Assembly (NCBI RefSeq): GCF_022810305.1
Contig: NZ_JALGQH010000008.1
Span: 62,001-126,000 of the forward strand
Length of the DNA: 64,000 nucleotides
From: Rhodococcus sp. ARC_M6
GTDB taxonomy: Bacteria; Actinomycetota; Actinomycetes; Mycobacteriales; Mycobacteriaceae
Direction: 5' to 3'
Shown here: positions 12,439-35,442 of the stretch, in pieces
Numbering within the stretch: position 1 is the stretch's first letter
Layout of the letters: every line of letters begins with the position of its first letter
Program-made: the position numbers and the translations under genes
The notes under the pieces: generated by a model
The model's database searches: none
The model's input: only the letters and a program-made list of their open reading frames with translations
Told to the model about the DNA's origin: nothing

Positions 12439-12463
12439 GGACAAATGCAGGTTGTTTGTAAGG
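12439..12463. promoter_or_regulatory. Degenerate butyrolactone-receptor-type operator (candidate a)
   Basis: The half-sites ACAAA (12441-12445) and TTTGT (12455-12459) form a short palindrome; the right half reads GGTTGTTTG, one base shorter than the GGTATGTTTG arm of the better sites. It lies about 100 bp before the receptor-like regulator gene at 12557, where an autoregulatory site would be expected. It is the weakest member of the set. Confidence 0.35.
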
Positions 12464-12556
12464 CGCGCCGAAAGCTGGACTGTGCCTTCCATTTTGACGC
12501 TGTGAACGGGTAAGGGTCAGGATGCGTTCGATGTGTGGTTATTGGAGGCCGGATCG

Positions 12557-13198
12557 ATGGTGAGGCAGGAACGGGCGGAAGCCACCCGTGATTCGGTACT
12601 GCGCGGAGCGGCCGGCGTGTTCATACGTCTGGGGTACGCAAACGCCAGTTTGAGCGAGATCATCGCTGAATCACAGGTGACCAAGGGGGCGCTGTACTTC
12701 CACTTCGGTTCCAAGGAAGAGCTGGCCAGGGCGGTGATCGACGAAGGCGCGGCCCGGTTCGACGCCAAGTGTGAGCTGTGGTTGGACCGTCGGACGCCGG
12801 CATTGGAATCGCTTATCGGCATCTCGTCGGTGACGGTCGATATCGGTGCGCACGACGTGCTTGTTCGGGCGACTTTCCGCTTGCTGGTCGAGATCGGAGA
12901 CTACCGGGGATCGGGTCCGGCAACATTCGACGTCTGGCACGACATCTTCCGGGAACTCACCAGTCGTGCTGCCGACGAGGGTGACTTGCGCCATGACGTC
13001 GATTCCTCGGACATTGCACGTTTCTTGCTTCAGATGGTGTCGGGTGTTCGATTGGTGGCGGCCGCGACGGGAACAGTGCGTGAGTTGTCCGAGTCGATGA
13101 AGTCGTCCTGGAATATGGTTCTTCCCGTGGTCGTACCTGAGTCGAAGGTTGAATACTTCCGTCAGTTCGCTGCACGCCGTCTTGGGACTGATCACTGA
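12557..13198 (+). CDS. TetR-family regulator of the gamma-butyrolactone-receptor (ScbR/ArpA) type
   Basis: The protein has 213 residues. The DNA-binding region matches the receptor family closely: VRQERAEATRD at the N-terminus, then FIRLGYANASLSEI and the hallmark VTKGALYFHFGSKEELA (about residues 40-56). The C-terminal part contains tryptophans in positions compatible with the ligand pocket, but this cannot be verified by eye. Receptors of this family repress target promoters until a diffusible gamma-butyrolactone releases them. The ATG at 12557 is preceded by GGAGG at 12544-12548. It stands just before the carrier-protein operon and within a region carrying matching palindromes. No AfsA-type synthase is nearby. 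Confidence 0.83.
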   Translation: MVRQERAEATRDSVLRGAAGVFIRLGYANASLSEIIAESQVTKGALYFHFGSKEELARAVIDEGAARFDAKCELWLDRRTPALESLIGISSVTVDIGAHDVLVRATFRLLVEIGDYRGSGPATFDVWHDIFRELTSRAADEGDLRHDVDSSDIARFLLQMVSGVRLVAAATGTVRELSESMKSSWNMVLPVVVPESKVEYFRQFAARRLGTDH

Positions 13199-13507
13199 GT
13201 TCAGGCTAGGTGCCGCCAATCGCTGATGTGGGATTTCAGGTTCCGGTCACGACTGTTCTCGTATTCCGCTCTGTGGGTTGTCTCGTTCATTAGCACTTTG
13301 AAACAAACCAAGAGTATGTTTGACGAGTAGTTGAATGCCAGTCGGTTCGATCTTGCTCACCATCTAGACGTTGCGGTATGTTCTCTGGGTAGCCAGACAG
13401 TTGCTGCATTGGTCGGGTTGGTCAAGACGGACAGGTTCGACGACACAAAGTCGGTGTAGCGGGCGGCGTAGGGGGCCGCCCGGTGCACCGATGGAAGGGG
13501 TAACCAG
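13199..13507. other. 309-bp intergenic region before the carrier-protein operon
   Basis: There is no credible coding sequence. The region holds the palindromic operator candidate at 13299-13323 and ends with the ribosome site GGAAGGGG (13493-13500) of the AcpS-like gene, so a promoter is expected here. No convincing -10/-35 pair was identified. Confidence 0.6.
13299..13323. promoter_or_regulatory. Butyrolactone-receptor-type operator (candidate b)
   Basis: The core arms are AAACAAACC (13301-13309) and AGTATGTTTG (13313-13322), separated by 3 bp; spacing is identical to the sites at 24532, 34998 and 35418. It lies about 190 bp before the AcpS-like gene and about 100 bp past the regulator gene. 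It is probably bound by the regulator encoded at 12557 (inference). Confidence 0.65.
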
Positions 13508-13957
13508 ATGAGTAGTGAGCGCACGCCGGCGGTCGACACTCGGGACGTCGGACCTCGGATCGGTTGCGACGTCGTCAACGTTGTCGACATCAGTCGGAGT
13601 ATCGATCTTTTCGGACGTCGTTATCTGGAGCGGACGTTCACGGCGCACGAGTTGACGACGTGCGACGGTCCGGCTCGAGATCAACGGCTGGCCGCTCGTT
13701 TTGCGGCTAAGGAAGCAGTGGTCAAGGTTCTCCGGCCACTCGACTCGGCGCTGCCGTGGAATTCGATCGAGATCACGCGAGAACTGTGGGGGGGATGTGG
13801 AGTAGTACTTTCCGGTGAAGCGGCGAAACTTGCCTTAGCGCAGGACCTTCAAGATTTTCAAGTATCTATTTCGCATGAGGCGGACGTTGCCATTGCAATG
13901 GTGATTGCCACGCGCTGCGACATTTCGCAAAAAACAGAAGGACGATGTCACCGATGA
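13508..13957 (+). CDS. AcpS-like 4'-phosphopantetheinyl transferase
   Basis: The protein has 149 residues, close to the 120-150 usual for AcpS. It carries the two family motifs, IGCDVVNVVDI (about residues 19-29, metal/CoA-binding Asp) and RFAAKEAVVKVL (about residues 63-74, catalytic Glu/Lys region). It should transfer phosphopantetheine from CoA to the serine of the carrier protein encoded next to it. It overlaps the next gene by 13 bases, and GGAAGGGG precedes the ATG. A housekeeping AcpS is normally found near the fatty-acid synthase, so this copy looks dedicated to the operon. Confidence 0.85.
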   Translation: MSSERTPAVDTRDVGPRIGCDVVNVVDISRSIDLFGRRYLERTFTAHELTTCDGPARDQRLAARFAAKEAVVKVLRPLDSALPWNSIEITRELWGGCGVVLSGEAAKLALAQDLQDFQVSISHEADVAIAMVIATRCDISQKTEGRCHR

Positions 13958-14196
13958 GTGATCAGGCAATTCGCAAGGTGCTCGTGGAGCATGGTCGGCT
14001 CGCAGTCGACGTCAGCGCGATTGATGTTGAAGCCGATCTCTACGAATTGGGGTTGACGTCCCACGCCAGTGTCAATGTGATGCTGGCCCTGGAAGATTCG
14101 TTCGATATCGAATTTCCGGACGAGTTGCTGCGCAAGAGTACCTTCGCGAGCGTCAAATCGATCGAAGACGCATTGATCGGTCTGGGTGCCGCGTGA
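13945..14196 (+). CDS. Stand-alone carrier protein (phosphopantetheine acceptor)
   Basis: The protein has 83 residues with the four-helix carrier-protein pattern. The modification site is in LYELGLTSHASVNVML: Ser39 takes the place of the serine in the usual DSL motif, with Thr before it. An acidic helix II follows (LALEDSFDIEFPDELL). ATG at 13945 and 13954 are both possible. It overlaps the AcpS-like gene upstream and the acyl-CoA dehydrogenase gene downstream (GTGA). It is the likely acceptor of the amino acid loaded by the ligase two genes downstream, as shown for homologous systems in Bradyrhizobium. Confidence 0.87.
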   Translation: MSPMSDQAIRKVLVEHGRLAVDVSAIDVEADLYELGLTSHASVNVMLALEDSFDIEFPDELLRKSTFASVKSIEDALIGLGAA

Positions 14197-15383
14197 GTAT
14201 GCCGATTTCCGAGGTTGTTGTCGGAACTGCCCACGAACGAGCGCGACTCGTTGCGGACGAGGTTGCCGCACAGTGGGCCGACCAGGTCGACGTAGAAGCG
14301 CGCTTCCCCGCAGAAGCGGTTGCCGCGATGCGTAAGCAACGGTTGCTGTCCGTGGCCGTGCCGACGGAGTTCGGCGGTGAAGGGTTGTCCTTGCGTGAGG
14401 TCGCCGAGATCGCACGAATCCTCGGATCACGTTGCGCTGCAAGCGGAATGATCTTCGCGATGCATCAGACTCAGATCTATTCGTTGGTCAAGCATGGAAA
14501 TACCGAGGCGCTTCGGGCATTTGTTGTCGAGGTCACCGCCAATCAATTGTTGCTCGCATCGGCAACCACAGAACTGGGTATCGGCGGAGACGTCAGCCGA
14601 AGTTATTGTGCTGTCGAAGATCTCGGTGGTCATCTGCTGTTGATCAAGAATGCACCGGTCATTTCGTACGGCGAGGAAGCTGACGCGATCGTCGTCACAG
14701 CTCGCCGAACACCGGAAAGTCAGCCCAATGACCAGGTTCTGGTTGTCTGCCGTCGAGCTGATCTCACACTGGAGAAGACCACCGACTGGAATACCCTCGG
14801 ACTGAGGGGAACCTGCAGCCTCGGATATATTCTTCGAGCTACCTCCACTCCGGACATGGTGGCGAAGACGCCGTATTCCTATATCTCCACCAACACCATG
14901 CTTCCGGTCTCGCATGTGGTGTGGAGTTCGGTGTGGCTGGGTATTGCGGATGCAGCGCTCGAGAAAGCGCGCAAGTATGTGCGCGCTGCAGCCCGGAAGC
15001 AGCCGGGAGTGTCATCTCCCGGTGCTCTACGGTTGGCCGAAACAGCCGCTGTGGCACAACAATTTGCGGATCTTGTGGATTCATCTGCTCGTCGGTACGA
15101 CCTCGCTGCGCAGACTCGAGACGGGTCCGAAGAGTTGGCCACAACAGATAGCGTCGGTTTTGCATTGTCGATGAACAACTTGAAGGTCACCACGTCGAAT
15201 TCGGTGGTGGAGATCATCGGCCAGGCGATGCTCATCTGCGGGATCTCGGGTTATCGCGAGGACAGCGAGTATTCGCTCGGTCGGCATCTCCGTGATGCAC
15301 ACGGGGCTGCGCTGATGGTGAATAACGATCGGATTATGGCGGGGTCTGCCCAGATGGCTATCGGATACCGAGGGACACTGTGA
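14193..15383 (+). CDS. Acyl-CoA dehydrogenase-family flavoprotein
   Basis: The protein has 396 residues, the full family length. N-terminal helical domain with ARFPAEAVAAMRKQRLLSVAVP and FGGEGLSLREVAEIARILG; middle beta domain with ATTELGIGGD; C-terminal domain with EIIGQAMLICGISGY and an acidic SLGRHLRDAHGAALMVNNDRI end that resembles the FAD/quinone side of the family. In this operon it probably oxidises the aminoacyl or acyl chain while it is bound to the carrier protein, as in prolyl/aminoacyl-carrier dehydrogenases (inference). The GTG start overlaps the carrier-protein stop, and its own stop overlaps the next start. Confidence 0.85.
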   Translation: MSMPISEVVVGTAHERARLVADEVAAQWADQVDVEARFPAEAVAAMRKQRLLSVAVPTEFGGEGLSLREVAEIARILGSRCAASGMIFAMHQTQIYSLVKHGNTEALRAFVVEVTANQLLLASATTELGIGGDVSRSYCAVEDLGGHLLLIKNAPVISYGEEADAIVVTARRTPESQPNDQVLVVCRRADLTLEKTTDWNTLGLRGTCSLGYILRATSTPDMVAKTPYSYISTNTMLPVSHVVWSSVWLGIADAALEKARKYVRAAARKQPGVSSPGALRLAETAAVAQQFADLVDSSARRYDLAAQTRDGSEELATTDSVGFALSMNNLKVTTSNSVVEIIGQAMLICGISGYREDSEYSLGRHLRDAHGAALMVNNDRIMAGSAQMAIGYRGTL

Positions 15384-16336
15384 CTACCAGTACCGGAATG
15401 AGTGAAACCGATTCTGTCCCTTCGGAGCTCGATCTTGCGAGAGCGGAGTTTCAGCGGGAGTTGTTGGCAGGCGGCCTCCTGATCAAGACTGATGTGGACG
15501 GCCTGTACGGGCGCTCCGGGGTCTTCGAGGACATCATCGACGGCATCGACCGTGTGGTGGTGGCCGCAGGTCCCGGATCGTCGGCGACACGCTTGCGCTT
15601 TCCACCCGTGTTTCCGCGGACCAGTTTCGAACGTACCGATTACATCGCGTCGTTCCCCAACCTGACCGGTGCGATCAATACCTTCACCGGTAGCAATTTC
15701 GATCACGCACAGTTGCTCGCCGATCGTGCAAGTGGTGAATCGTGGGATCGTTATCTCGAGCCGACCGAGACGATGCTGGTGTCGGCAGCCTGCCATCCGG
15801 CCTATGCCCAGTACTCGGGCGTGCTGCCCAAGGGCGGAGTGCTGCTTGATATCTACGGTTTCTGCTTCCGTCACGAACCCGCGATCGACCCGGCACGTAT
15901 GCAGGCGTTTCGGATGCACGAGTTCGTCACCATCGGCGATGCCCACGCGGCGGCCGCTCACCGTGAAACCTGGATCCGACGGGGCCTCGAGGTCCTCGAC
16001 GGACTCGGTCTCGAGGCCACGCCGGTCATTGCAAACGATCCCTTCTTCGGGCGGGCCGGCCGTATGTTGGCTGTAAACCAACGCGAAGAAAACCTGAAGA
16101 CGGAGTTGGTCGTTCGGTTGTACGGTGACCACGACGAGGGCACTGCGATCGTCTCGTCCAACAATCACCTCGACCACTTCGGTCAGACGTTCGGTATTAA
16201 GACTTCCGACGGCGATGTTGCGCACAGTTCGTGTGTCGGATTCGGAATGGAACGTATTGCTTTGGCGCTCTTACGGACACATGGTTTGAATGTCTCAGGC
16301 TGGCCGGTAGAAATTCGCGGACGTATGGGTTTGTGA
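15380..16336 (+). CDS. Amino acid:[carrier-protein] ligase (class II SerRS-like)
   Basis: The protein has 318 residues and lacks the N-terminal tRNA-binding arm of seryl-tRNA synthetase. Motif 2 is FCFRHEPAIDPARMQAFRMHEF and motif 3 is GFGMERIALALLRTHG. Cys138 (SAACHP), Glu181 (MHEF) and Cys285 (HSSC) correspond to the zinc ligands of atypical archaeal-type SerRS and of the Bradyrhizobium BLL0957-type ligases. That family activates a small amino acid (Gly or Ala) with ATP and transfers it to a carrier protein, not to tRNA. The GTG start overlaps the previous stop; ATG at 15398 is an alternative. Which amino acid is used cannot be read from the sequence. Confidence 0.86.
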   Translation: MTTSTGMSETDSVPSELDLARAEFQRELLAGGLLIKTDVDGLYGRSGVFEDIIDGIDRVVVAAGPGSSATRLRFPPVFPRTSFERTDYIASFPNLTGAINTFTGSNFDHAQLLADRASGESWDRYLEPTETMLVSAACHPAYAQYSGVLPKGGVLLDIYGFCFRHEPAIDPARMQAFRMHEFVTIGDAHAAAAHRETWIRRGLEVLDGLGLEATPVIANDPFFGRAGRMLAVNQREENLKTELVVRLYGDHDEGTAIVSSNNHLDHFGQTFGIKTSDGDVAHSSCVGFGMERIALALLRTHGLNVSGWPVEIRGRMGL

Positions 16337-17322
16337 TGGCGCGCCTCCTGGATGTTGTCCCCGACGGGTACTCCCCGCACGCCATTCACCGCGATGATCG
16401 GGTGTGGGCGCAGACCAACTGCTACCTCGACTTGTGGATCGAAGTTCTGCATTCGCTCGGACTCGACCCCGTGCCGGCGTTGGCCTGTGCTTTTTCGTCG
16501 AGGTTCGACGGTACGCAGTGGACTTTTCTGAAGCTCAAAGCCGAAGACATTGTGGCGCTGTACGGAATCGACGTTGCGGAGATGAATGTCTGGCGAGCTC
16601 CGCTGGTGCATGTCGAGGACAATCTCGAGGTGGGAATGTTGTCGACTGTGGAGGTCGACGGTTATTGGCTCCCCGACACGTTGGGGACGAGTTACCATGA
16701 GGCGCATGCCAAGACCACGATTGTTCCTAATCGGATCGATCGGGTAGCGGGCGAGCTCGAGTACTTCCACAACAGTGGATACCATGTTTTGCGGGGTGAA
16801 GATTTCTCCGGCGTTTTCGACCTCGATCGTTCGAGTTTGCCGTCGTTTGTTCCTTACGTCGAACAGATTCGACTCTCGCCAGGTTATGCAATGAATACCG
16901 GGAACGTCGGGGAAGTTGCACGTCGAAACGTTGCAGCCCGCCCGCCGGGAAATCCGGTGCGCGAGTTGGGCCGACGAGTGGTCGAGGATTCCGAGTGGGT
17001 CCAGGCGGCCGGTATGGATGCGTTTCATCTCTGGTCCTTCGGTTTGTTGCGTCAATGCGGTGCCAGCGCTGAACTTGCGGGCGATGTCAGCGAGTTTCTC
17101 GACACGGCAGGGTTTTCCGGAACTATTGAGGCTGCCGCAGGCTTCCGTAAGGTTGCTGCGGGAGCGAAGAGTGTTCAATTCCAAATGGCGCGTGCGGCGA
17201 GGGGACGCGCCGTGGACCCACGTGATCAACTCGACGAGATGGCAGTGTCCTGGAAGAATTCCATGGACATCATCACGTCCATCGTCGGAGTTGAGTCGCA
17301 GCGACACCTCAGGCTGGTGTGA
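16336..17322 (+). CDS. DUF1839-family protein
   Basis: The protein has 328 residues. It resembles the DUF1839 family that accompanies amino acid:carrier-protein ligases; features seen are HRDDRVWAQTNCYLDLWIEVLHSLG near the start, FEGDQWTFFK-like FDGTQWTFLKLKAEDIVALYG, and the middle LPDTLGTSYHEAHAKTTI. A papain-like or peptide-transferring role has been suggested by its Cys/His content, but I cannot establish one; NCYLD and SYHEAH are the only obvious candidates. The ATG at 16336 overlaps the ligase stop (TGATG). An open frame running back to 16231 lies inside the ligase gene and is rejected. Confidence 0.75.
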   Translation: MARLLDVVPDGYSPHAIHRDDRVWAQTNCYLDLWIEVLHSLGLDPVPALACAFSSRFDGTQWTFLKLKAEDIVALYGIDVAEMNVWRAPLVHVEDNLEVGMLSTVEVDGYWLPDTLGTSYHEAHAKTTIVPNRIDRVAGELEYFHNSGYHVLRGEDFSGVFDLDRSSLPSFVPYVEQIRLSPGYAMNTGNVGEVARRNVAARPPGNPVRELGRRVVEDSEWVQAAGMDAFHLWSFGLLRQCGASAELAGDVSEFLDTAGFSGTIEAAAGFRKVAAGAKSVQFQMARAARGRAVDPRDQLDEMAVSWKNSMDIITSIVGVESQRHLRLV

Positions 17323-19871
17323 TGGCACGCTACTCTCGAGCAGATTTGCTTGACGGAGCAGATTGGCGTTGTATCGCAACAGATCCCGGGGTGATGTCGA
17401 ATCCGACCGAGCTGGGCTCGATCACCGGGGAGTGGCACCGGGCGACGGTACCGGGAACGGTGGCGGGAGCGATTCGCGAATCGGACGGACCCGGGTCCGT
17501 TGACGTCACGATGCTCGACACTATGGACTGGTGGTTCGTTACTCGGGTGGCCACGACCGGTGAGGGGTCGTGGCTGCTCCACTTCGACGGACTGACGGCG
17601 TTTGCCGATGTCTGGGTAGACAACACGTTGACCATCTCGTCGGAATCGATGTTCGTTCCCGGTGAAGCGATCGTGACCCGTGATACGACGAGCGGGCGTG
17701 AGATCACGATCGCTATTCGCTTTCATTCTCTGGCAGCGATATTGAGTTCGCGTCGGCCGCGCGGCCGGTGGCGTTCGTCGTTGGTCCGCGATCAAGGGCT
17801 GAGGTGGATACGCACGACCCTGCTGGGGCGAGCGGCAGTGTTTTCCGGAGTTCCCGTTCCGGTGGGTCCGTGGCGAGGCATCCGGTTACTGGATACCCAC
17901 AAGATTGGTGTTGTTTCTCGGTCGCTGGATGCCGGCGTCGACGGCGGCACAGGTCGGGTCGAGATCACGGCGCGGCTCACTGGTGTGCCGAGCGCCCTCG
18001 CGGCCGTCGCCGTCGCTGTCGGTACAGTGCGAGGCTCGCTCACCGTGAAACCTGGCAGAGATGGGTTGACCGAGGTCACCGGTGTCGTCGAGATTCCCGA
18101 GGTGGATCTCTGGTGGCCGCACACCCATGGCGCTCCGCACCGGTACCCGGTGTCGATCGAGGTCGGTGGAAAGGTGTTCGAGCTGGGAAACGTCGGTTTT
18201 CGCAGCCTCGAGGTTGATCGGAGCGGTGGCGGATTTCGCCTGTCGGTCAACGGCATTGACGTGTACTGCCGGGGATCGGTCTGGACGCCTACCGATCCGA
18301 TCTCCTTCCAGTCCGAGACCATGACAACTCAGGTGCTCGAACGGTGCGCCGGCGCCGGTGTGAACATGCTGCGGGTTCCGGGAACCATGGTCTACGAGAG
18401 CGATCATTTCTGGAACGAGTGCGCACGGCTGGGCATTCTCGTCTGGCAGGACGCGATGCTCGCGACACTCGATCCGCCGGACACCGCAGAGTTCTTTGCA
18501 CTGTTCTCGGCTGAGATACGTACGTTTTTCGGGCGCGTCGGTGGCAATCCGGCCCTCGCGGTCTTCTGTGGTGGAAGCGAAACCGAGCAGCAACCGGCCA
18601 TGCTCGGTTTGGTTGATCAGCAGATCTCGGTCATTCACTCTCAGCTGCCGTCGTTGATTGCAGACCTATCACCCCACGTCGAATACGTGACGTCGTCGCC
18701 GTCCGCTCCGCCCGAGTGCGAGGAGTTGGTTACCCACGTCGGTAGCGGTATCGCGCACTACTTCGGAGTGGGTGCGTACCGTCGTCCGCTCGATGACGTG
18801 ACGCGCGCACGAGTGCGATTCGCCGCTGAGTGCTTGGCCTTTGCGATTCCGCCTTCCAACAACGTCATCGAATCCGCATTCGGATCCGTGTCGGCGGCGG
18901 GGCATCATCCGGCGTGGAAAGCTGCAGTACCGCGAGACCACGGGTCGTCGTGGGATTTCGAAGACGTTCGCGATCACTACGTCAAGACGCTGTTCGGCGA
19001 GGATCCGAGCGAGGTGCGCTGGTCCGATCCGGAACGTTATCTCGACCTGGGCCGGGCAGCGATCTGTGAAGCGTTCGGGGCAGTTCTCGGCCACTGGCGC
19101 CGAGCAGATTCCGGATGCGACGGTGCCCTCACCTTGGCACTGATGGATCTCGAACCGGGGCCGGGATGGGGAGTCCTCGACTGGCAAGGCGCCCCCAAAG
19201 CGCCCTGGTATGTGCTTGGGCGCTACTCGAAACCACTGGCTCTCATCGTTACAGACGACGGAATGGACGGGCTTCGTCTCGACGTGCTGAACGAGACTGC
19301 GCAGCCGGTCGTCGGCGAAATCCGCATCCGGGCGCACAGCCGGTCCGGGATCGTTCCGGTGAATGCCGTCGCCCCGGTCAAGATCGAGGCGCACGGAAGC
19401 CAGAGCCTGTCCGTCGACGCCGTGGTGGGACGATTCACCGATCTCACACATGTTTTCAAGTTCGGCCCGCCCAACTACGATGCCGTCACGGTCACCCTCG
19501 AGAACGACGAGGGGACGGTGCTCGAGGAGGTGGTACACCTGTTGGGGAGTGCTGCCCGGCCTCTCGAACGTTCGTTGGGTTTGTCGGCAATCGCACGCTC
19601 GGTCGGCGAGGACGAGTGGGTTGTCGACGTCACGTCCGAAGGTACGGCGCAGTACGTTTCGCTGGACCTGCAAGGCTTTGAGCCGGAGGATTCCTGGTTC
19701 CATCTGGCACCCGGAGGCTCGCGGACAGTGAGGTTGCGCCGCGTTGGTCAAGCGAAGATGGTGATCGGTCGGGTGCGGGCGCTCAACTCACAGGCAAGCG
19801 TGGCGGTCGCGCCGCTGACGGTGGCCGAACATCTTCGAGTATCGACACCGAAGCGGGTTCCGCGTAGATAG
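17322..19871 (+). CDS. Glycoside hydrolase family 2 (beta-mannosidase-like) protein
   Basis: The protein has 849 residues with the GH2 order: jelly-roll domain (HFDGLTAFADVWVDN), two beta-sandwich regions, a TIM barrel beginning about VNGIDVYCRGSVWTPTDP, and C-terminal beta domains. The barrel has WNECARLGILVWQDAM. The likely acid/base is Glu420 in CGGSETEQ and the likely nucleophile Glu503 in RFAAEC, so both catalytic positions seem to be kept. No signal peptide is visible, so it probably acts in the cytosol. ATG at 17322 overlaps the DUF1839 stop; a GTG three bases earlier is possible. A hydrolase at the end of a carrier-protein operon suggests that the product is glycosylated or that the protein transfers a sugar (speculative). 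Confidence 0.75.
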   Translation: MARYSRADLLDGADWRCIATDPGVMSNPTELGSITGEWHRATVPGTVAGAIRESDGPGSVDVTMLDTMDWWFVTRVATTGEGSWLLHFDGLTAFADVWVDNTLTISSESMFVPGEAIVTRDTTSGREITIAIRFHSLAAILSSRRPRGRWRSSLVRDQGLRWIRTTLLGRAAVFSGVPVPVGPWRGIRLLDTHKIGVVSRSLDAGVDGGTGRVEITARLTGVPSALAAVAVAVGTVRGSLTVKPGRDGLTEVTGVVEIPEVDLWWPHTHGAPHRYPVSIEVGGKVFELGNVGFRSLEVDRSGGGFRLSVNGIDVYCRGSVWTPTDPISFQSETMTTQVLERCAGAGVNMLRVPGTMVYESDHFWNECARLGILVWQDAMLATLDPPDTAEFFALFSAEIRTFFGRVGGNPALAVFCGGSETEQQPAMLGLVDQQISVIHSQLPSLIADLSPHVEYVTSSPSAPPECEELVTHVGSGIAHYFGVGAYRRPLDDVTRARVRFAAECLAFAIPPSNNVIESAFGSVSAAGHHPAWKAAVPRDHGSSWDFEDVRDHYVKTLFGEDPSEVRWSDPERYLDLGRAAICEAFGAVLGHWRRADSGCDGALTLALMDLEPGPGWGVLDWQGAPKAPWYVLGRYSKPLALIVTDDGMDGLRLDVLNETAQPVVGEIRIRAHSRSGIVPVNAVAPVKIEAHGSQSLSVDAVVGRFTDLTHVFKFGPPNYDAVTVTLENDEGTVLEEVVHLLGSAARPLERSLGLSAIARSVGEDEWVVDVTSEGTAQYVSLDLQGFEPEDSWFHLAPGGSRTVRLRRVGQAKMVIGRVRALNSQASVAVAPLTVAEHLRVSTPKRVPRR

Positions 19872-19974: not shown

Positions 19975-22900
19975 TTGACTGCCCTGCCGCCCGCTGCCCA
20001 GACTTTGCTTGCCGGACTTGCCGAGGCCGCACTCGCGGACACTGCATTTACTGCGGTGACCGAGGCGATCGGTAGCGCCAGACTCGATATCGTTGCGCCC
20101 AAGCCGGCGAGGCCGTTCATCGCGGCTGCGCTCGCAGCGCACAATCCGGTGCTACTGGTTACTGCGACGGGTCGTGAGGCCGACGATCTGACTGAGGAAC
20201 TCACCGAGATGATCGGGGGTTCCGTCGCGCAGTTCCCGTCTTGGGAAACGTTGCCGCACGAGCGGTTGTCACCGAGCGCCGATACCGTCGGGCGACGCAT
20301 CGAGGTGCTGCGTCGGCTCGCACGTCCGGACGACGCGTCGTACGGCGCTCCATTGCGCGTTGTGGTGACGACGGTGCGCTCGCTGGTTCAGCCGATGGCA
20401 CCCGGGTTGGGGGAGATCGAGCCGATCACTCTGCGCGCCGGCACCGAGATCGACTTCGAATCCGTGCTGGTCCGACTCGTGGAGATGGCGTATACACGCG
20501 TCGATATGGTGGGTAAACGTGGTGAGTTTGCGGTACGCGGAGGCATTCTGGATCTCTTCTCACCGACCGCCGATCATCCCGTTCGAGTTGAATTCTGGGG
20601 TGACGAGGTCTCAGAACTGAGGTATTTCTCCGTAGCCGACCAGCGGTCACTGCCTGATATCGACGTCGACGTCGTGATCGCGCCACCGTGTCGGGAATTG
20701 CTGTTGACACAGGACGTCCGGGATCGGGCAGCGAAGATCGCAGCCGAGAACCAAGCCGACGCGTCGCTCGTGGAAATGCTGGACAAGATCTCGGCAGGCA
20801 TTGCAGTCGAAGGTATGGAAGCTTTGCTGCCGGTGTTGAAACCCGGTGAACTGCAACTACTTTCCGATATTCTTCCGGGTGGAACCCATATCGTCGTGTG
20901 CGATCCGGAGAAGGTGCGCACGCGTGCAACGGATTTGGTTCGAACCGGACAGGAGTTCCTGGAAGCGTCGTGGACTGCGGCATCGATCGGTGGTGCGGCG
21001 CCGCTCGATACTTCCATTCTGGCCGGCGAGTCCGGTCTCGGCGCTTCCGCCTACCGATCGTTGCGTCAGGTACGCGAGTCCGCGGAAGCCGGTGGGCGTC
21101 CGTGGTGGACCATCAGCCCGCTGGCGTCGGGTAACGGCGAAGAACTGGAACTTCCGATTCAGGCGGCCCCACAGATACGTGGATCCGACGACCTCCTGGC
21201 CGAGCTTTTTGTCAGTCTCCGCGCCCATGTGAGCACCGGTGGACGTGCTGCCGTCGTCGTTGCCGGAGCCGGTACCGCAAAGCGCATCTACGAGCGACTC
21301 GGCGAGGCTGAGGTTCCGGCCACGATGCTCGAACCCGGCGCAGTTCCGGCGCGTGGTCAGGTTTCGGTGCTGCGCGGATCGTTGCACGACGGTCTGGTTC
21401 TACACGGCGGTAGCAGTGTGCCCGGGCGGGGCGAGGTGCCGGGAATGGTCGTCGTCACCGAAGCCGACCTCACCGGCAATCGGGTTGCTGCAGTCGGTGA
21501 CGGTAAACGGCTTCCGGCCAAGCGTCGTAACCAGGTGGATCCGCTCGCGCTTGCCGCCGGCGACATGGTTGTTCACGATCAGCACGGTATCGGGCGGTTC
21601 GTGGAGATGGTGGAGCGCACCATCGGCGGCGCGCGACGCGAGTACCTGGTCATCGAATACTCGGCCAGCAAGCGTGGGCAACCCGGCGACCGACTCTTCG
21701 TGCCGATGGAGTCGCTGGATCAACTTTCCCGCTATGTCGGTGGCGAGATGCCGGCGCTCAGCAAACTCGGTGGATCCGACTGGACCAATACAAAAACTAA
21801 GGCACGCAAGGCAGTTCGCGAGATCGCCGGCGAGCTCGTGCAGCTCTATGCTGCGCGTCAGGCAGCCCCCGGGCACGCCTTCGGTCCGGATACACCGTGG
21901 CAGAAGGAACTCGAGGACGCGTTTGCCTTCACCGAGACTGTCGACCAGTTGACGGTAATCAGTGAAGTCAAGGGCGACATGGAAAAACCTGTCCCGATGG
22001 ACCGCGTTGTCATCGGCGACGTCGGATACGGCAAGACGGAGATCGCAGTCCGCGCAGCGTTCAAGGCCGTTCAGGACGGCAAGCAGGTTGCGGTTCTCGT
22101 ACCGACGACTCTGCTTGCGCAGCAGCACCTTCAGACCTTCACCGAGCGGATGGCATCGTTTCCGGTCAAGGTTCGTGGGCTCTCACGCTTCACCGACGCG
22201 CGAGATTCCAAGGAGATCATCGCCGGGATGGCCGAGGGCGAGGTCGACATCGTCATCGGAACACATCGTTTGTTGCAGACTGCCGTCCGCTGGAAGGACC
22301 TCGGTCTGGTCATCGTCGATGAGGAGCAACGGTTCGGCGTCGAACACAAGGAACACATCAAGGCGCTGCGTACCCACGTCGACGTACTGACGATGTCGGC
22401 CACCCCGATCCCTCGTACGCTGGAAATGAGCATGGCGGGCATCCGGGAGATGTCGACAATTCTCACGCCTCCCGAAGAACGGCATCCGATCCTGACCTAC
22501 GTCGGTGCCTATGCGGACAAGCAAGTTGCCGCGGCAATTCGTCGTGAGCTTCTGCGTGACGGTCAGATCTTCTATGTGCACAACCGAGTGAGCTCGATCG
22601 GCAAGGCAGCCAAGAAGATTCGTGAACTCGTTCCGGAGGCTCGTGTCGTGGTCGCGCACGGACAGATGAACGAGGACACTCTCGAGAAGACTGTTCAAGG
22701 ATTCTGGGAGAGAGACTACGACGTCCTGGTTTGTACCACCATCATCGAGACCGGTCTCGATATCTCCAATGCGAACACGCTGATCGTCGAGCGCGCCGAT
22801 TCGCTCGGACTCTCGCAGCTCCACCAGCTGCGAGGCCGGGTGGGGCGTAGCCGTGAACGCGGATACGCGTACTTCCTGTATCCGCCCGAAAAGCCTTTGA

Positions 22901-23619
22901 CCGAAACGGCCTACGACCGCCTGGCCACCATTTCGCAGAACTCCGATCTCGGTGCCGGCATGGCTGTCGCCATGAAGGACCTCGAAATCCGCGGCGCCGG
23001 CAACGTTCTCGGTGCCGAGCAGTCCGGTCACGTTGCCGGCGTCGGTTTCGACCTCTACGTGCGGTTGGTCGGCGAAGCAGTCGAGGCGTATCGGGCAGCT
23101 GCAGACGGACGCCCCATCACCACCGACGATGCGCCCAAGGAAGTCCGCATCGACCTTCCCGTCGATGCGCATATTCCGCCGGATTACGTCACCAGTGATC
23201 GGCTCAGGCTCGAGGGCTACCGGAAGATTGCTGCCGCAACGGATTCCGACGGCATCGCCGGGGTGGTCGAGGAACTCGTCGACCGTTACGGACCGATACC
23301 GGAAGAAGTCCGACGTCTTGTGTCTGTGGCGAAGCTGCGGCTACTGGCTCGTGAGTACCAGCTCGAAGAGATCGCGGTCACGGGTACACAGATCAAGGTT
23401 GCGCCGATGGCGTTGCCGGATTCCAAGCAGATCAGGCTCAAACGGATCTATCCGAGCGCGCAGTACCGGGCTACCACGGGTTTGGTGCAGTTGCCGATGC
23501 CGCGAACCGGTGGTGTCGGTTCCGATCGTCTGCGCGACGTGGAACTGTTGCAGTACATCGCGGACTTCATCCTGGCCATCGATGGTCGGGCAGCCGGCGC
23601 TGTTGTCATGGAGGCTTGA
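19975..23619 (+). CDS. mfd: Transcription-repair coupling factor
   Basis: Removes stalled RNA polymerase and recruits UvrA. The protein has 1214 residues, typical for actinobacteria. It has the UvrB-homology N-terminal part ([25 protein letters not shown]), the polymerase-interacting domain ([17 protein letters not shown], around residue 530), and the translocase with Walker [17 protein letters not shown] near residue 680, DEEQRFG near 781, [15 protein letters not shown] and the second RecA lobe [15 protein letters not shown] / [17 protein letters not shown]. The TTG start at 19975 is supported by GAGGAG ten bases upstream. Confidence 0.97.
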
Positions 23620-23625
23620 GCGCAC

Positions 23626-24531: not shown

Positions 24532-24556
24532 GCAAACAAACCTGAGGTATGTTTGC
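24532..24556. promoter_or_regulatory. Butyrolactone-receptor-type operator (candidate c, best match)
   Basis: The left arm GCAAACAAACC (24532-24542) and right arm GGTATGTTTGC (24546-24556) are reverse complements at 10 of 11 positions around a TGA spacer. It stands about 240 bp before the first exopolysaccharide gene and is the clearest of four equally spaced copies in the window. Confidence 0.75.
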
Positions 24557-29824: not shown

Positions 29825-29864
29825 GCCGGGAACCAGTGCAGCTTTGCTGGCAAGGGATTCGAAA

Positions 29865-31022
29865 TTATCGTCGGCTCTTCGAGACAGTGGGTGGACTCTT
29901 CGGGGATTGGTATTCAGATTCGAGTACCGCCCTCACCGCATCCATTCCGAGTTGGCGGCGCGCGATGTCTCGGCCGCGTTCTCCCATGGCCGAAGCTTTG
30001 TCTGGATTGTCGAGCAAAAACGATATTGCTGACGAGAGCGCCTCCGTGGAGTCGTCCACAACGATTCCACATCGCCCCTCTTGAATCACTGGAGCGACGC
30101 CGCACGTATCCGTCACCACGACGGGAAGTCCGGCCGACATGGCTTCGAGAACTGTCATGGGGAACGGTTCATGCACCGAAGGAAGAACATAGATCGAGGC
30201 CTGCCGGTATCGTTCGGTTGATCCGGAGAACGGAAGTGGCCCTTCGTATCGAATGAAGTCGTGATGCCCGGAGTTCTCGATCAGACTGACGACTGCGTCG
30301 GCTTCCCCCTCATCGGGGCCGACAAGCGAGAAGCGTGCGCTGAAACCATTGTCCAAGATCATTTTTGCGGCATCGACGAAGACCTGTGGCCGTTTCCGTT
30401 CTTGAAGTCGCGCCAGGTACAGAACCTCGGGCCTTTGATCAGAATTGACCGACTTGAACGGAAGGTCGTCCATTTCTGGTATTCCATTTTTCAATTCGAC
30501 CAAATTGACATCGTGGTCACCGACGACCGACCTCAAGTCGCTGCGCTCTCGATCTGTCAGGTAGAAGATCGTCCGTGCATTCCTCAACACTGGGTTAGTG
30601 AGGAGAGCGTCAAGCGGTTTGGCCAAGGCTTTGTCAGTAGGGTCGATCATTCCGTGTGTCTGTGCAAATGTCGGAATTCCATATGACAGTGACAGTTTCG
30701 CGGCAGGTAGCGTTACCAGATCGCGCGCCAGATGGACATGAATGACGTCGTAGTCTCGGATGTTCTTATGGAGCCACCACAACATGGCGGGGGCAGCCAT
30801 ACCGGCGTAACCGATTTTCGGAAGCACGGTACGTGCCGGAAACAACTTCAACGGAATGCCTTGTTCGTGCGTTGGCGCTGTCTCATACCCTCGCGAGGCT
30901 GCGGCGATGGTCACGTCATGGCCATTGTCCTGCAGGGCTTTCGACTGATTGAGTGCCACACGTAGCGGTCCGCCGTAGGCAGCGTCCGGTGAGAATAGCG
31001 TGACAACTTGTAGAATCTTCAC
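29865..31022 (-). CDS. Glycosyltransferase family 4
   Basis: The protein has 385 residues and the GT-B fold of retaining GT4 enzymes. N-terminal half: KILQVVTLFSPDAAYGGPLRVA and DVIHVHLARDLV. C-terminal half: RPEVLYLARLQERKRPQVFVDAA, FSLVGPDEGEADA, and the nucleotide-binding SVHEPFPMTVLEAMSAGLPVVVTD (EX7E type, with PFPMTVLEAM). The GTG start overlaps the acyltransferase stop (GTGA); an open frame running back to 31157 lies within that gene. It should add a sugar to the lipid-linked repeat unit in the cytosol; GDP-fucose made by its neighbours is one possible donor. Confidence 0.87.
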   Translation of the reverse strand: MKILQVVTLFSPDAAYGGPLRVALNQSKALQDNGHDVTIAAASRGYETAPTHEQGIPLKLFPARTVLPKIGYAGMAAPAMLWWLHKNIRDYDVIHVHLARDLVTLPAAKLSLSYGIPTFAQTHGMIDPTDKALAKPLDALLTNPVLRNARTIFYLTDRERSDLRSVVGDHDVNLVELKNGIPEMDDLPFKSVNSDQRPEVLYLARLQERKRPQVFVDAAKMILDNGFSARFSLVGPDEGEADAVVSLIENSGHHDFIRYEGPLPFSGSTERYRQASIYVLPSVHEPFPMTVLEAMSAGLPVVVTDTCGVAPVIQEGRCGIVVDDSTEALSSAISFLLDNPDKASAMGERGRDIARRQLGMDAVRAVLESEYQSPKSPPTVSKSRR

Positions 31023-31558
31023 CGCGATGCGCCTGCCCGAGGCGCCAACATCGTGGTTCCGTCCGGCACGTCCGCAGTGACGAGTGCGGTTGCACCGATA
31101 ATCGCTCGGTCTCCGATTGTGACGCCACGCAGTACTGTCGCGCGAGCAGCGATCCATGCGCCGTCGCCGATCACGATGGGTGCGTTGTCGAACTCAAATG
31201 TGGGACTCCGGTGATCGTGACTTCCGGTGCACAGCAGTACATCTTGCGAAACAACGCTGTCCGATCCGATGGTGACCGGTTCGAGATTGAGGATCCACGT
31301 GCCCTCGCCGATCCACGAATCTGCACCTACCTTCAGCTTCCACGGCCAATGGATGCGGACACGATGTCGGATGAGGACGCCGTCGGCGATATCGGCACCG
31401 AACTTTCGTAGCACAGCGATCCGAATGCTGTTCGGACACCACCATTGTGAGAGGACTGAACCGGAGATTGCGAGCCAGGCAATCTGAATGATTCGCCCGC
31501 GGCCCTTGTCATACCCGGCTCCGGTGAATCCGGCCAGGGATCTTGAGCTGTTGTTCAT
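31019..31558 (-). CDS. WcaF-like hexapeptide-repeat acyltransferase
   Basis: The protein has 179 residues and consists mainly of left-handed beta-helix repeats: KFGADIADGVLIRHRVRIHWPWKLKVGADSWIGEGTWI (as extent), VTIGSDSVVSQDVLLCTGSHDH, PIVIGDGAWIAARATVLRGVTIGDRAIIGATALV. The His in GSHDH is the usual catalytic residue of this group. It probably adds an acetyl group to a sugar of the exopolysaccharide, like WcaF of colanic acid. Its ATG overlaps the GDP-fucose synthase stop (ATGA), and its stop overlaps the next start. Confidence 0.85.
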   Translation of the reverse strand: MNNSSRSLAGFTGAGYDKGRGRIIQIAWLAISGSVLSQWWCPNSIRIAVLRKFGADIADGVLIRHRVRIHWPWKLKVGADSWIGEGTWILNLEPVTIGSDSVVSQDVLLCTGSHDHRSPTFEFDNAPIVIGDGAWIAARATVLRGVTIGDRAIIGATALVTADVPDGTTMLAPRAGASR

Positions 31559-32535
31559 AGCCGAACCGAATCGGCACTGTCGCGGAGGTGCTGGCGATAC
31601 CACTCCACTGTTGACGCGACACCGCTGCGGGTCGAAATCTGCGGGCTCCATCCGGTTGCCGTCAGTGCGGAGGTATCGAGGAGCTTTCGCGGGGCACCGT
31701 CAGGCTTAGTGGTATCCCAGAGCATTGTGCCCTCGTAACCACAAGCATCCGCCACGATCTCAGCGATTTCCTTGATGGTCTCGTCTCGGCCGGTGCCAAC
31801 GTTGATATGTGTTGGGGCATCGTAATTGTCGAGCAGGTGTAGGACCGCGTCAGCCATGTCGTCGACATGCAGGAACTCTCGGCGTGGAGTGCCGGATCCC
31901 CAATTGGTGACAGATTCGAGTCCGTCACGCTGCGCCTGATCGAATCGGCGAATCAACGACGGTACGACATGCGAGAGGGTGGCCGAGAAATTGTCACCCG
32001 GACCGTAGAGGTTGGTAGGCATCGCCGAGATCCAAGGAAGTCCGTATTGCCGACGGACCGACTGGACGTGAATGATTCCAGCGATCTTGGAGATTGCGTA
32101 GGCATCGTTGGTCGGCTCCAGTGGGCCGTTCAGCAACTGGTCTTCCGATATCGGTTGCGTTGCGAGCCTTGGATATATGCATGACGAGCCGAGAAAGATC
32201 AGTCGATGGACACCGTGATGCAATGCGGCGTCGAGGACGTTGGTTTGGATCTGCAGATTGTCCGAGATGAAGTCGACTGGATAGGTGTTGTTGGCGACGA
32301 TTCCACCAACTTTCGCAGCTGCCAGTACTACACACGAAGGTTTGGACTGCTCGAAGAAATCGAACACATCCGAACGGCTTCGGAGATCCAATTCGGAGGA
32401 TGTTCGCCCGATCAGATTACTGAAGTTGCTCTGTTCCATCCTGCGCCAGACCGCTGATCCTACAAGGCCGCGGTGCCCGGCAATGTAAGTCGGTGCGTTG
32501 CGATCCAGGGGTTGCACTGTTTCAGGAGTCGTCAT
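31555..32535 (-). CDS. fcl: GDP-L-fucose synthase
   Basis: Epimerises and reduces GDP-4-keto-6-deoxymannose to GDP-L-fucose with NADPH. The protein has 326 residues of the extended SDR family: YIAGHRGLVGSAVWRRM (coenzyme loop), FLGSSCIYPRLATQPI, and the catalytic Tyr/Lys in NDAYAISKIAG. LYGPGDNF and WGSGTPRREFLHVDDMADA are typical of this enzyme. ATG at 32535 is preceded by GGAGAAAG, which overlaps the end of gmd. It works with the adjacent gmd product, showing that the polysaccharide probably contains fucose. Confidence 0.94.
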   Translation of the reverse strand: MTTPETVQPLDRNAPTYIAGHRGLVGSAVWRRMEQSNFSNLIGRTSSELDLRSRSDVFDFFEQSKPSCVVLAAAKVGGIVANNTYPVDFISDNLQIQTNVLDAALHHGVHRLIFLGSSCIYPRLATQPISEDQLLNGPLEPTNDAYAISKIAGIIHVQSVRRQYGLPWISAMPTNLYGPGDNFSATLSHVVPSLIRRFDQAQRDGLESVTNWGSGTPRREFLHVDDMADAVLHLLDNYDAPTHINVGTGRDETIKEIAEIVADACGYEGTMLWDTTKPDGAPRKLLDTSALTATGWSPQISTRSGVASTVEWYRQHLRDSADSVRL

Positions 32536-32540
32536 GAGAG

Positions 32541-33569
32541 TTACTTTCTCCAATCGGGCAGATCTGGTGTGTCGATCCAGGGACTGCCCTCATGCTGGAG
32601 TGCCGCAATATCGGCTTCCATCATGATTCGGGCAAGCTCCGGTGTGTGGACGGTGGCCTTCCAGCCCAACTGACGTTCGGCTTTGCCGGCGTCGCCGACG
32701 AGCGCGTCGACTTCGGTCGGGCGTAGGTACCGCGGGTCGAACTTGACGTACTTCTGCCAGTCCAATCCGACGTGGCCGAACGCCGCTTCGACGAAGTCCT
32801 TGACCGTGAAGTTTCCGCCGGTCGCCAGGACGTAATCATCAGGTTCGTCGGTCTGAAGCATCCGCCACATGCCTTCGACGTATTCGGGTGCATAGCCCCA
32901 GTCTCGAATGGCATCGAGGTTTCCCATGTAGAGGGTGTCCTGCATCCCGGCTTGAATTCGTGCTACAGCTCGAGTGATCTTTCGGGTGACGAAAGTTTCT
33001 CCGCGCCGGGGTGATTCATGATTGAAGAGAATTCCGTTCACGGCATGAATGCCGTATGCCTCACGGTAATTTCGGGTGATCCAGTACGAGTACACCTTTG
33101 CAGCGCCGTACGGTGAGCGGGGGTAGAAGACAGTGTCCTCGTTCTGCGGCGGGGGCGACGCGCCGAACATTTCGGAGCTCGAGGCCTGGTAGTACCGGCA
33201 CTGCAACCCGGTCATCCGTACTGCTTCCAGCAATCGGATCGATCCGATACCTGTTGTGTCACCGGTATGTTCGGGTTCGTCGAAACTCACACGGACGTGA
33301 GACTGCGCCGCGAGGTTGTACACCTCGTCGGGTGCGATGGTCGACAGCAGCGTGACGAGTCGAGCGCCGTCGGAAAGATCACCGTAGTGCAGGAACAGTC
33401 GAGTGTCGTCATTATGCGGATCTTGATAGAGGTGCTCGATACGCGCAGTGTTGAATGTGGATGCACGTCGGATCAGTCCGTGTACTTCATAGCCTTTCGA
33501 CAGCAACAGTTCTGCGAGATATGAACCGTCCTGTCCGGTAATTCCCGTAATGAGTGCACGTTTGGTCAT
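32541..33569 (-). CDS. gmd: GDP-mannose 4,6-dehydratase
   Basis: Converts GDP-mannose to GDP-4-keto-6-deoxymannose, the precursor of GDP-fucose and other deoxyhexoses. The protein has 342 residues. Motifs: [19 protein letters not shown] (NADP loop), [32 protein letters not shown] with the catalytic YxxxK in SPYGAAK, and [24 protein letters not shown]. The ATG overlaps the stop of the upstream glycosyltransferase gene. It is tightly linked to fcl. Confidence 0.96.
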
Positions 33570-34882
33570 CGGACGTCAACTGCCTTGTCTGTTGTGGTTG
33601 GGACAGCAACTCGCACTGGAGACTTGCCGCGTACTGCGGCCAGTGCGTGAACCCAGTGTTCGAATTTGTCGATCGAGGAGGTCTTTCCGACGGTTGCCGA
33701 GCAGTACTCGATTCCTGCCGCGCCGAGGTTTCGGGATTTCTCCGGGTCACCCGCGAGTTGCAGTGCCGCGGAGAGCAGTCCGGCTGGTTCACCGGCAGGT
33801 GTGACCACTCCGGCACCCGACGCGCGAATCTCATCGGCGGTTGTCGACGTGACGTCGGTGGCGGCCACGATCGGCGTTCCACTGCTGAAGTAGGAAGTGA
33901 GCTTGCTCGGGACGGCCATTCCCACAATTCCCGGAGCTTCGTTGACGAGCAGGACATCTGCTGCGGCCATAGCTGTCCGGAACGCCTCGTCGTCCAGTGG
34001 GAGTACAAAATCGATGCGATCTACACCTGCGGCTGCAGATTCGAGAGCAAGCCTTTGATTGCCATCGCCAACTAGGACAAAACGAATTGGAAGCCGTTGT
34101 TCGTCAGCGAGTTTCGCGGCGTTCACGACGTTGTCGAGACCTTGTTTGACGCCCATGTTGCCGGTATGGAGTACGACGACCTCGTCAGCTGACCATCCGA
34201 ATTGTGCTCGCGCGGCGGCGAGATCGGCAATATCGATCGGCGCTACGTGCGTCCAGTTCCGGATTACCGTGACTCGTTCCCGAGGGATCGCGAGCTCGCT
34301 CACGACGTGATCGGCAAAGCGATCGTGAATCACGGCAATGCCGTCGAATGCTTTCAACACGGTAGCTTCGAGACGTGAAGTTGCTTGGGCGCCACGGCCA
34401 CTCAACGCACCGGTTTCGGCAACACCCTGCCCGTACAGGTCTTGAACCCACACGCCGATCGCCGGGCGGTTCCGCGTCGACCGACTACGCCCCAGAGCCA
34501 TTGCGGTAGAAAGCAATGCGGGGCTCGCACAGATGATCACGTCTGGTTTGTGCCACCGGGACATGACCGCGCGTGCGCCGAAGCTCAGTTCCATCTTGAT
34601 CCGGCCGAGCGCACTGGGCGGGCTGGGGACGAAGTGGCGTCGGCGGTGAACGTAAACGCCGTTTACTACCTCGTCGATGGATCTGCCGAGAAAACTGGAA
34701 TCGTTTTCCCAGGCAGGGTAGTGAGGATAGCCGGTGACTATGTGGACTCGATGGCCTCGTTCGGCGAGTGCCTCGGCCAGATCCGTCGTGTACGGCGCGA
34801 TACCCGTTGTCTCGGGAGCGTAATTGATGCCCACGATGGTGATGTTGAGTGTGTCGGAGTGGGGCGCGTGCGGATCGACCAT
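33566..34882 (-). CDS. Glycosyltransferase family 4 (WbuB-like)
   Basis: The protein has 438 residues from ATG 34882. N-terminal part: [32 protein letters not shown] and [11 protein letters not shown]-terminal part: [67 protein letters not shown]. This is the pattern of WbuB-type transferases that add FucNAc or related sugars. A TTG at 35005 would extend the frame by 41 residues, but that stretch is composition-poor and would overlap the operator at 34998-35022, so the ATG preceded by GCGGAG is preferred. It heads the minus-strand operon GT4-gmd-fcl-acyltransferase-GT4-ydcF, all joined by overlaps. Confidence 0.88.
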
Positions 34883-34997
34883 GGCGTCGGACTCCGCTGT
34901 CTCGGTCCCTACTACGTCCGATTCGCTCCGGGCGCTGTTGTGTAGCCGATCAGTCGGTGTGCCGATGACGAACCTCCAAGTCCGGTAAACCCACGTT

Positions 34998-35022
34998 TTA
35001 AACAATCTTCAGGTTTGTTTAG
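34998..35022. promoter_or_regulatory. Butyrolactone-receptor-type operator (candidate d)
   Basis: The arms are AAACAATCT (35000-35008) and GGTTTGTTTA (35012-35021), with the same 3-bp spacer and register as the other sites. It lies about 115-140 bp before the ATG at 34882 of the divergent glycosyltransferase operon. Confidence 0.6.
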
Positions 35023-35417
35023 GCCATTTAAGCCGCATGTTGGTTGTTTTTCAACCGATGGCCAGGCGCTGGTGGCATACAAACCGTCGGATTTCGTGAG
35101 CACTTCGGTGTGCGTTGGCGATATACGTCGTGGTTAACCCACGATTTGCCAATCTGTGGACGGTCGATGCGGATTCACCAGAATGGCCGACTGTGTTCAA
35201 TTCCACGCTCGATTGCGCCGCTCTTCAATATGTCAGGTTGTAGACACGGCATGCTCCGCCTTTGGATCGCGATAGCCATGTACAAGACGATAATTCGTCA
35301 CACTTGTCCGTAGGGTCCCGATCTGAAGATGCGCGAACACCGGCGCCCGCCTTGGCTTCGATACCCTCGGATGGGGTTCACTGGTTCGACGCGCGAACCG
35401 TGGTCGGTTACCCTTTA

Positions 35418-35442
35418 GTAAACAAACTTTCAGTCTGTTCTG
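35418..35442. promoter_or_regulatory. Butyrolactone-receptor-type operator (candidate e)
   Basis: The left arm AAACAAACT (35420-35428) is near perfect, while the right arm AGTCTGTTCTG (35432-35442) is weaker. Spacing matches the other copies. It lies about 110 bp before the flippase start at 35551. Confidence 0.55.

Follow-up and report, generated by a model that had tools for sequence, protein, structure and literature searches.

Candidate operators of an ScbR-family regulator at a polysaccharide island of Rhodococcus sp. ARC_M6

The 64,000 nt of Rhodococcus sp. ARC_M6 analysed here (contig NZ_JALGQH010000008.1, positions 62,001 to 126,000; the window) carry four intergenic palindromes, sites A to D, which judged from their sequence are almost certainly operators. 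They are quite probably the operators of an ScbR/ArpA-family protein encoded at 12557 (REG), through which one polysaccharide system, comprising a carrier-protein modification operon and several exopolysaccharide (EPS) operons, would be switched as a unit. REG is the best candidate for binding sites A to D, and a likely one. The sites, their conservation, the family of the regulator, its co-occurrence with the sites and its co-inheritance with the carrier-protein pathway are computed here.

Palindromes in the window and in related genomes

The regulator and the four sites are as follows.

12557..13198, plus strand: REG, ScbR/ArpA-family TetR-type regulator (NCBIfam NF041196, 163.7 bits, cut-off 150)
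13301..13321, no strand: site A, AAACAAACCAAGAGTATGTTT, upstream of the phosphopantetheinyl transferase (PPTase) and carrier-protein operon; pattern match
24534..24554, no strand: site B, AAACAAACCTGAGGTATGTTT, upstream of the EPS sugar-phosphate transferase; pattern match
35000..35020, no strand: site C, AAACAATCTTCAGGTTTGTTT, upstream of the minus-strand EPS operon; pattern and matrix match
35420..35440, no strand: site D, AAACAAACTTTCAGTCTGTTC, upstream of the plus-strand EPS operon; pattern and matrix match

The four share the consensus AAACANACC-NNN-GGTNTGTTT, two 9-bp arms around a 3-bp spacer (9-3-9), and all match AAACANWC-NNNNN-GNHTGTTY; the arms of A, B, C and D pair at 7, 8, 7 and 7 of 9 positions. 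The original prediction, made from the letters of the window, had put them at 13299, 24532, 34998 and 35418. The palindromes are real, with starts shifted by 2 bases, and the length of 25 bp claimed for them shrinks to a core of 21 bp, or 23 with one flanking base per side. Their spacer, said to be identical, is constant in length only, its sequence being AAG, TGA, TCA and TTC. A poorer copy proposed at 12439 was rejected as a member of the family, having 6-bp arms, a spacing of 7-9 bp and a matrix score below 9 bits.

All four sites lie, as had been predicted, in intergenic DNA about 110-240 bp ahead of likely operon-head starts: about 190 bp for the PPTase (A), about 240 bp for the sugar-phosphate transferase (B), 115-165 bp to 34882 or 34834 on the minus strand (C) and about 110 bp to the ATG at 35551 (D). 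The starts 35551 and 34882/34834 were picked by eye from the sequence, with frames from the list of open reading frames (ORFs) and an NCBIfam match. Grouped by similarity, the 9-3-9 palindromes of the window give a largest family of four; each of 20 dinucleotide shuffles gives two to three, which taken alone is a modest margin. A matrix trained on 20 sites from several genomes, sites A to D among them, gives these four 27.8-33.1 bits and the next-best place in the window 10.2. The top score in relatives' DNA outside the training set, 1.387 Mb around 72 regulator homologues of other species, is 17.0.

Conservation was followed in a clade of ten genomes whose regulator is at least 88% identical. 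An exact-pattern place is present at the positions of both site A and site B in 10/10, three genomes for site B (G012 and G013 among them) and some for site A being placed by distance from the regulator only. Invariant columns make up 86% of site A and 25% of its flanks in an alignment of nine genomes, and 86% of site B and 9% of its flanks in one of eight; the most conserved 21-bp stretch in both alignments is the site itself (G012 is omitted from both, G013 also from that of site B). Counterparts of site D occur where the EPS genes resemble those of the window (L190, 26.1 bits; L205, 24.8 bits), with a counterpart of site C, at 16.0 bits, in L205 only of these two. In G003, where about 113 kb separate the regulator from the carrier-protein operon, site A remains with the operon, which argues that site A serves this operon and acts in trans.

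The gene content of the EPS interior varies strongly among clade members (L188, L193, L196, L201, L203) while the border sites persist. The one on the mazG side is kept, and in four genomes (G003, G016, G018 and G023; L188, L201, L193 and L203) a site also stands at the far border, before a homologue of the window's two-domain hydrolase gene. Apart from the window's own genome, four clade members have a full site (30.9-33.4 bits) before this homologue. Upstream of the hydrolase gene of the window itself there is a degenerate copy of the motif (47005-47027, 10.2 bits).

In the genome of the strain (a 6.34 Mb draft in 134 contigs, completeness 100) the exact pattern has five places, four of them within the window, and the reversed pattern none. 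With one mismatch allowed there are 18 strand matches and 6 for the reversed pattern, so the weakest one-mismatch places may be chance. Rather than being spread over unrelated regions, the outcome named beforehand as counting against the prediction, four of the five exact places in this pattern scan, used as an approximation, fall in one 22-kb region. The fifth (C127:14039; L053:5040-5060; 25.4 bits) stands in front of a BldC-family gene (NF033787, 102.3 bits, cut-off 77); each of the nine other clade genomes has a weaker counterpart, at 14.7-19.9 bits. A one-mismatch place at 51860 of C132, about 10 kb ahead of the window, forms a tandem pair with a site at 51830 (L052:9830-9880; 23.3 and 25.1 bits, respectively). 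The pair stands ahead of a gene for a small Gly/Ser-rich protein with no family in Pfam or NCBIfam, near a pnuC gene, and recurs at the same setting in G001 (L235). The DNA flanking a one-mismatch place on C14 is present in 6 of 28 genus genomes, own included. Genus-wide, the pattern gave 64 strand matches at 33 places, and the reversed pattern 11 strand matches in 10 genomes. Flanks were read for 20 of the 25 genus places of the one-mismatch scan; G002:53762, two places in G012, G013:142713 and G022:355492 were placed by distance from the regulator or site likeness only.

The regulator and its co-occurrence with the sites

Assignment of the 12557 product to the ScbR/ArpA family, as first proposed, is borne out by its NF041196 score and by its nearest solved structures, CprB (E 7.7e-24), AvaR1 and a butyrolactone receptor. 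The tryptophan aligned with W127 of CprB, which we take to be the equivalent of ArpA Trp-119, is kept in 57/57 receptor rows, REG included. Trp-119 of ArpA is the ligand-binding tryptophan according to the title of a cited paper. The gene order Rv1019-type tetR, REG, mfd is found at 13 of 15 relatives' loci in Rhodococcus, Rhodococcoides, Nocardia and Antrihabitans, a count that draws on 15 of the 80 loci L106-L185.

Within the genus, 22/28 genomes are REG-positive at an identity of at least 43%, G026 with a truncated copy; G014 (42%) was left out because its protein groups elsewhere in the tree. All 15 site-bearing genomes have REG (truncated in G026), against the 22/28 overall (P 0.005, kinship ignored). 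Of 251 genomes sampled from the taxonomic family, 26 have a one-mismatch site and 2 a match to the reversed pattern. A REG homologue at E 1e-45 is present in 94 genomes, which include all of the 26 site-bearing ones but G026, hence 25. Outside the genus, 12/12 genomes with a site are REG-positive, compared with REG in 77/230 (P 1e-6, kinship ignored). In other lineages (L075, L079, L080 and L087), places of the same 3-bp class, at 13.5-22.2 bits, follow REG at a distance of 50-150 bp.

A carrier-protein pathway and EPS genes as one probable system

The genes around the sites are listed below; the mfd-mazG backbone between the two halves of the island is placed outside the regulon count.

13508..13957, plus strand: AcpS-type PPTase (PF01648, TIGR00556)
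13954..14196, plus strand: small carrier protein, PRK07081 type (NF005480, 103.5 bits, cut-off 72)
14193..15383, plus strand: acyl-CoA/acyl-carrier dehydrogenase-like protein (PF02771, PF00441)
15380..16336, plus strand: amino acid:[carrier protein] ligase (NF005479, 429.5 bits, cut-off 357; 4h2w, E 6.5e-67)
16231..17322, plus strand: DUF1839 protein (PF08893, 335.6 bits); the true start is probably later than the ORF call
17319..19871, plus strand: large protein with GH2-type N-terminal domain (PF22666)
19975..24453, plus strand: mfd-mazG backbone (TIGR00580, PF03819, synteny)
24798..26279, plus strand: WcaJ-type EPS polyprenyl glycosylphosphotransferase (TIGR03025, 403.2 bits, cut-off 295.55)
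29865..34882, minus strand: divergent EPS operon (glycosyltransferase, GDP-L-fucose synthase-like protein, GDP-mannose 4,6-dehydratase, WcaI-type glycosyltransferase)
35551..42305, plus strand: EPS operon (putative flippase, repeat-unit polymerase, GDSL lipase, two Wzz/tyrosine-kinase-like proteins)
45139..47196, minus strand: two-domain alpha/beta hydrolase resembling exosortase-A-associated hydrolases 2 and 1, below the cut-offs

The prediction had described a regulon joining two loci, a carrier-protein pathway and EPS synthesis. One regulon is indeed likely; the two loci, from co-inheritance in the genus and adjacency in another genus, look like one polysaccharide system arranged around mfd-mazG. 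The ligase is present in 18/22 REG-positive and 1/6 REG-negative genomes of the genus, on the same contig as REG in 17/18 and within 40 kb of it in 16, and in only 9 of 396 phylum genomes, own included. In G165, from another genus of the family (g29), the genes follow in the order WcaJ, ligase, carrier protein, PPTase, two-domain hydrolase homologue and glycosyltransferase, and in G541 carrier protein, dehydrogenase and ligase are followed by the hydrolase homologue. At the distant loci L276, L278 and L280 neither WcaJ nor the hydrolase homologue was found within the stretch. L278, from a distant actinobacterium (G392), has carrier protein, dehydrogenase, ligase, DUF1839 and GH2-like genes behind mfd. 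The carrier-protein pathway may decorate the polysaccharide, a proposal that is our own.

As with the ligase Bll0957, presumably a Bradyrhizobium protein, the ligase here is paired with a carrier protein, the two scoring over the cut-offs of NF005479 and NF005480. Distinctive of the window, set against Bll0957 as a protein (PDB 3mey, 4h2w), are the accompanying dehydrogenase, DUF1839 and GH2-like proteins, the neighbouring polysaccharide locus and, likely, control by an ScbR-type regulator. The window hydrolase shares both domain types and an EPS context with exosortase-A-associated EPS hydrolases 1 and 2 (TIGR03100, TIGR03101), from which it differs in having the two fused in one protein and in scoring below both cut-offs (TIGR03101, 92.7 of 202.75 bits; TIGR03100, 71.3 of 168.45), these still being its best NCBIfam matches.

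In the 35551..42305 operon TIGR04370 is matched with 41.5 bits (cut-off 40), and the flippase is a putative assignment made from its place, without a family match. The ORF at 35455 has no family in Pfam or NCBIfam. The two-domain hydrolase probably starts later than the called 47196, since the beginning of its frame overlaps a divergent HSP70-like ORF (47098-48387). Where the EPS operon ends (42302-43856), two overlapping frames share a GH71-type glycoside hydrolase (profile positions 13-109 and 113-374), so that the gene looks broken or carries a sequencing error.

Proposed switch and its alternatives

In the proposed mechanism a REG dimer, or a pair of dimers, would bind AAACANACC half-sites exactly 3 bp apart at the heads of the carrier-protein modification operon (A), the first EPS operon (B) and the two divergent EPS operons (C, D). 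By family precedent, REG would keep these promoters repressed as long as the pocket of the conserved tryptophan lacks its small ligand, and release of REG would switch EPS synthesis as one unit; the operator also stands ahead of cyclic di-GMP (c-di-GMP) enzymes in some related rhodococci. The ligand would not be made by an AfsA, the butyrolactone synthase, of this cell, none having been found. Physical binding, repression and release would here resemble those of other receptors of the family, which in the excerpt seen of one study bind palindromes without ligand and repress (PMC7480387).

Several results weigh against this mechanism. No site of the family was found upstream of 12557, that is, in the promoter of REG itself. 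In the ScbR family an operator in the own promoter, giving autoregulation, is common, and its lack is unusual. The three regions scanned for sigma-70-like promoters beside the sites yielded none. A one-mismatch site is missing from 69 of the 94 REG-positive genomes of the family sample, the 72 loci of other species, each with a REG homologue, have no site of at least 18 bits, and G005 and G008 carry REG beside EPS genes with no site of at least 12 bits in 15 and 12 kb. Eight of 12 extra-genus sites are near genes without an evident EPS link (fhaA twice, a desaturase/TetR pair). The co-occurrence test ignores phylogeny; it also cannot tell REG from its neighbour, the Rv1019-type tetR, whose distribution was not searched.

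The nature of the ligand bears on the strongest alternative. The original prediction had inferred one diffusible signal for both loci. Under classical butyrolactone quorum sensing, its reading, a gamma-butyrolactone would free REG, the signal here coming from neighbouring cells (eavesdropping); this reading, possible and on the whole unlikely, differs from the mechanism above in the ligand only. It accords with the family and ligand tryptophan of REG, and excerpts of a study of R. jostii RHA1 report that this strain makes a butyrolactone or butyrolactone-like molecule and that butyrolactone clusters occur in virtually all rhodococci surveyed in 2017 (PMC5735094). AfsA (PF03756) is present in 20/28 genus genomes and has no match in the strain's own. 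Joint inheritance of AfsA and the sites was rejected, AfsA occurring in 10/15 site-bearing and 10/13 other genus genomes; with no AfsA found in this strain and no association between AfsA and the sites, a self-made butyrolactone signal is unlikely here. In the receptor tree, some rows of which have long branches, strongly supported branches separate the REG orthologues from 12/13 AfsA-adjacent receptors. The exception is a protein 57% identical to REG that adjoins AfsA in G004 and leaves a butyrolactone-like ligand for REG possible; at this locus (G004:C79:37526-40498, L069) the AfsA gene lies between two receptor-family genes.

The spacing of the half-sites separates the two situations further. 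The half-site ACANACC of the window sites is that of AfsA-adjacent palindromes, the exact form ACANACC-4 bp-GGTNTGT lying near AfsA in 9/20 Rhodococcus AfsA loci and the 3-bp form, with up to two mismatches, in none of the 20. Conversely, 15 REG loci of other lineages have 11 matches to the 3-bp form (9 different places) and none to the 4-bp form. Across the genus, 12 genomes have a single exact copy of the 4-bp form, which in nine of them lies at AfsA; the strain's own genome has none. The six erythropolis-clade AfsA loci (L039, L046-L050) have no exact 4-bp form, some of them carrying another palindrome of the GAAACCAACGGT type; the contrast between 3 and 4 bp is therefore drawn from AfsA loci outside this clade, which is the window's own. 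The sites were rejected as the Rhodococcus AfsA-adjacent operator for their 3-bp spacer. They were also rejected as canonical Streptomyces autoregulatory elements (AREs), since they have 4-5 mismatches to the SfbR and 3-4 to the AvaR1 consensus, which many random stretches of the window equal. The 18-bp elements published for these receptors, as given in excerpts, are AAACVGNNBVNNCSGTTT (SfbR, PMC7480387) and AWWCCRBBHDDNMSGTWT (AvaR1, PMC5744401).

REG thus shares with the Streptomyces receptors ScbR, ArpA and CprB the family, the recognition helix (TKGALYFHF), the ligand tryptophan and AT-rich palindromic operators. It differs in that 3 bp between ACC and GGT misfit the 18-bp SfbR and AvaR1 AREs, in its EPS and, in some relatives, c-di-GMP targets, and in having neither a synthase partner nor a site in its own promoter. 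With GblR/GblA of R. jostii RHA1, as far as the excerpts of that study go (PMC5735094), family and genus are shared; receptors of the GblR/GblA type fall on another branch of the tree, and AfsA-adjacent palindromes have the 4-bp spacer.

A tentative extension, held with no more confidence than the eavesdropping reading, is that the REG branch is AfsA-independent, uses its own 3-bp register, senses a non-classical signal and co-switches EPS and c-di-GMP genes, the signal possibly being an aminoacyl-carrier or another island product. Four genomes (G010, G015, G024 and G027) keep REG without the ligase, which speaks against a signal made by the island.

Binding of the sites by another regulator seems improbable. 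The candidates are an ScbR-family paralogue, since two further proteins of the genome (C29, C85) exceed the ScbR cut-off, and the Rv1019-type TetR encoded at 11715, which is equally close, is kept beside REG and, according to an excerpt of a review, has in M. tuberculosis a namesake, Rv1019, that negatively regulates mfd (PMC9579286). There is, however, no place of at least 7 bits within about 1.5 kb of either paralogue gene. The Rv1019-type protein reaches 46.5 of 150 bits and falls outside the ScbR family by cut-off; the presence of sites tracks that of REG, and their half-site is common to the palindromes beside AfsA. That the palindromes are instead recombination or cassette-boundary repeats aiding exchange of the EPS interior is very improbable: they do border an EPS region of variable gene content in the clade, but they also occur at bldC, at the gene for the small Gly/Ser-rich protein and at c-di-GMP genes, and their half-site equals that of AfsA-adjacent palindromes except in spacing.

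Relation to published work

Judged by title and abstract opening, none of the best literature matches describes this operator or places Rhodococcus EPS under an ScbR-type regulator. The regulator family is already known; the operator register and the target system are new, and a synthase partner is absent. In its excerpts, the R. jostii RHA1 study set wild type against gblA strains for antibiotic production, growth and colony shape, and called for further experiments on what the system does (PMC5735094). Candidate EPS regulators named by a 2025 Rhodococcus study, likewise in excerpt, are AraC, PhoU, XRE and OmpR neighbours (PMC12298843). The present analysis names a candidate regulator, operator and targets for Rhodococcus EPS. 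It predicts two paralogous operator classes told apart by one bp of spacing, 3 bp at the EPS island and 4 bp beside AfsA in several lineages. Polysaccharide synthesis is moreover tied to an orphan amino-acid:carrier-protein ligase pathway, which suggests amino-acid or acyl decoration of the polymer.

Sites in other lineages

EPS and c-di-GMP are a common theme of the sites in other rhodococci. Sites of the 3-bp class precede a GGDEF/EAL gene, or an operon with one, at L198:9448 and L230:9547 (L230/L142), and a weak one (L238:5858, 12.7 bits) is near a GGDEF/EAL c-di-GMP gene. The site of L234 lies between UDP-glucose-dehydrogenase and Wzy operons, and in L228, from another lineage, a site again precedes EPS or c-di-GMP genes. 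The sites of G010 and G024 are 1.5-2.5 kb from a WcaJ homologue, their nearest neighbours being small ORFs without known family (one ORF scanned). Three of the 12 extra-genus sites are at REG-mfd-mazG or WcaJ/DyP-peroxidase loci, and one is about 6 kb from a WcaJ homologue.

Two genomes of genus g23 have matching palindromes before fhaA (FHA-domain) genes (L223:9742, L227:9722); 15/20 sampled g23 genomes are without a site by pattern. At L222:9031 a palindrome lies between a TetR (TetR_C_35) and a fatty-acid desaturase gene and is possibly the operator of another TetR regulator.

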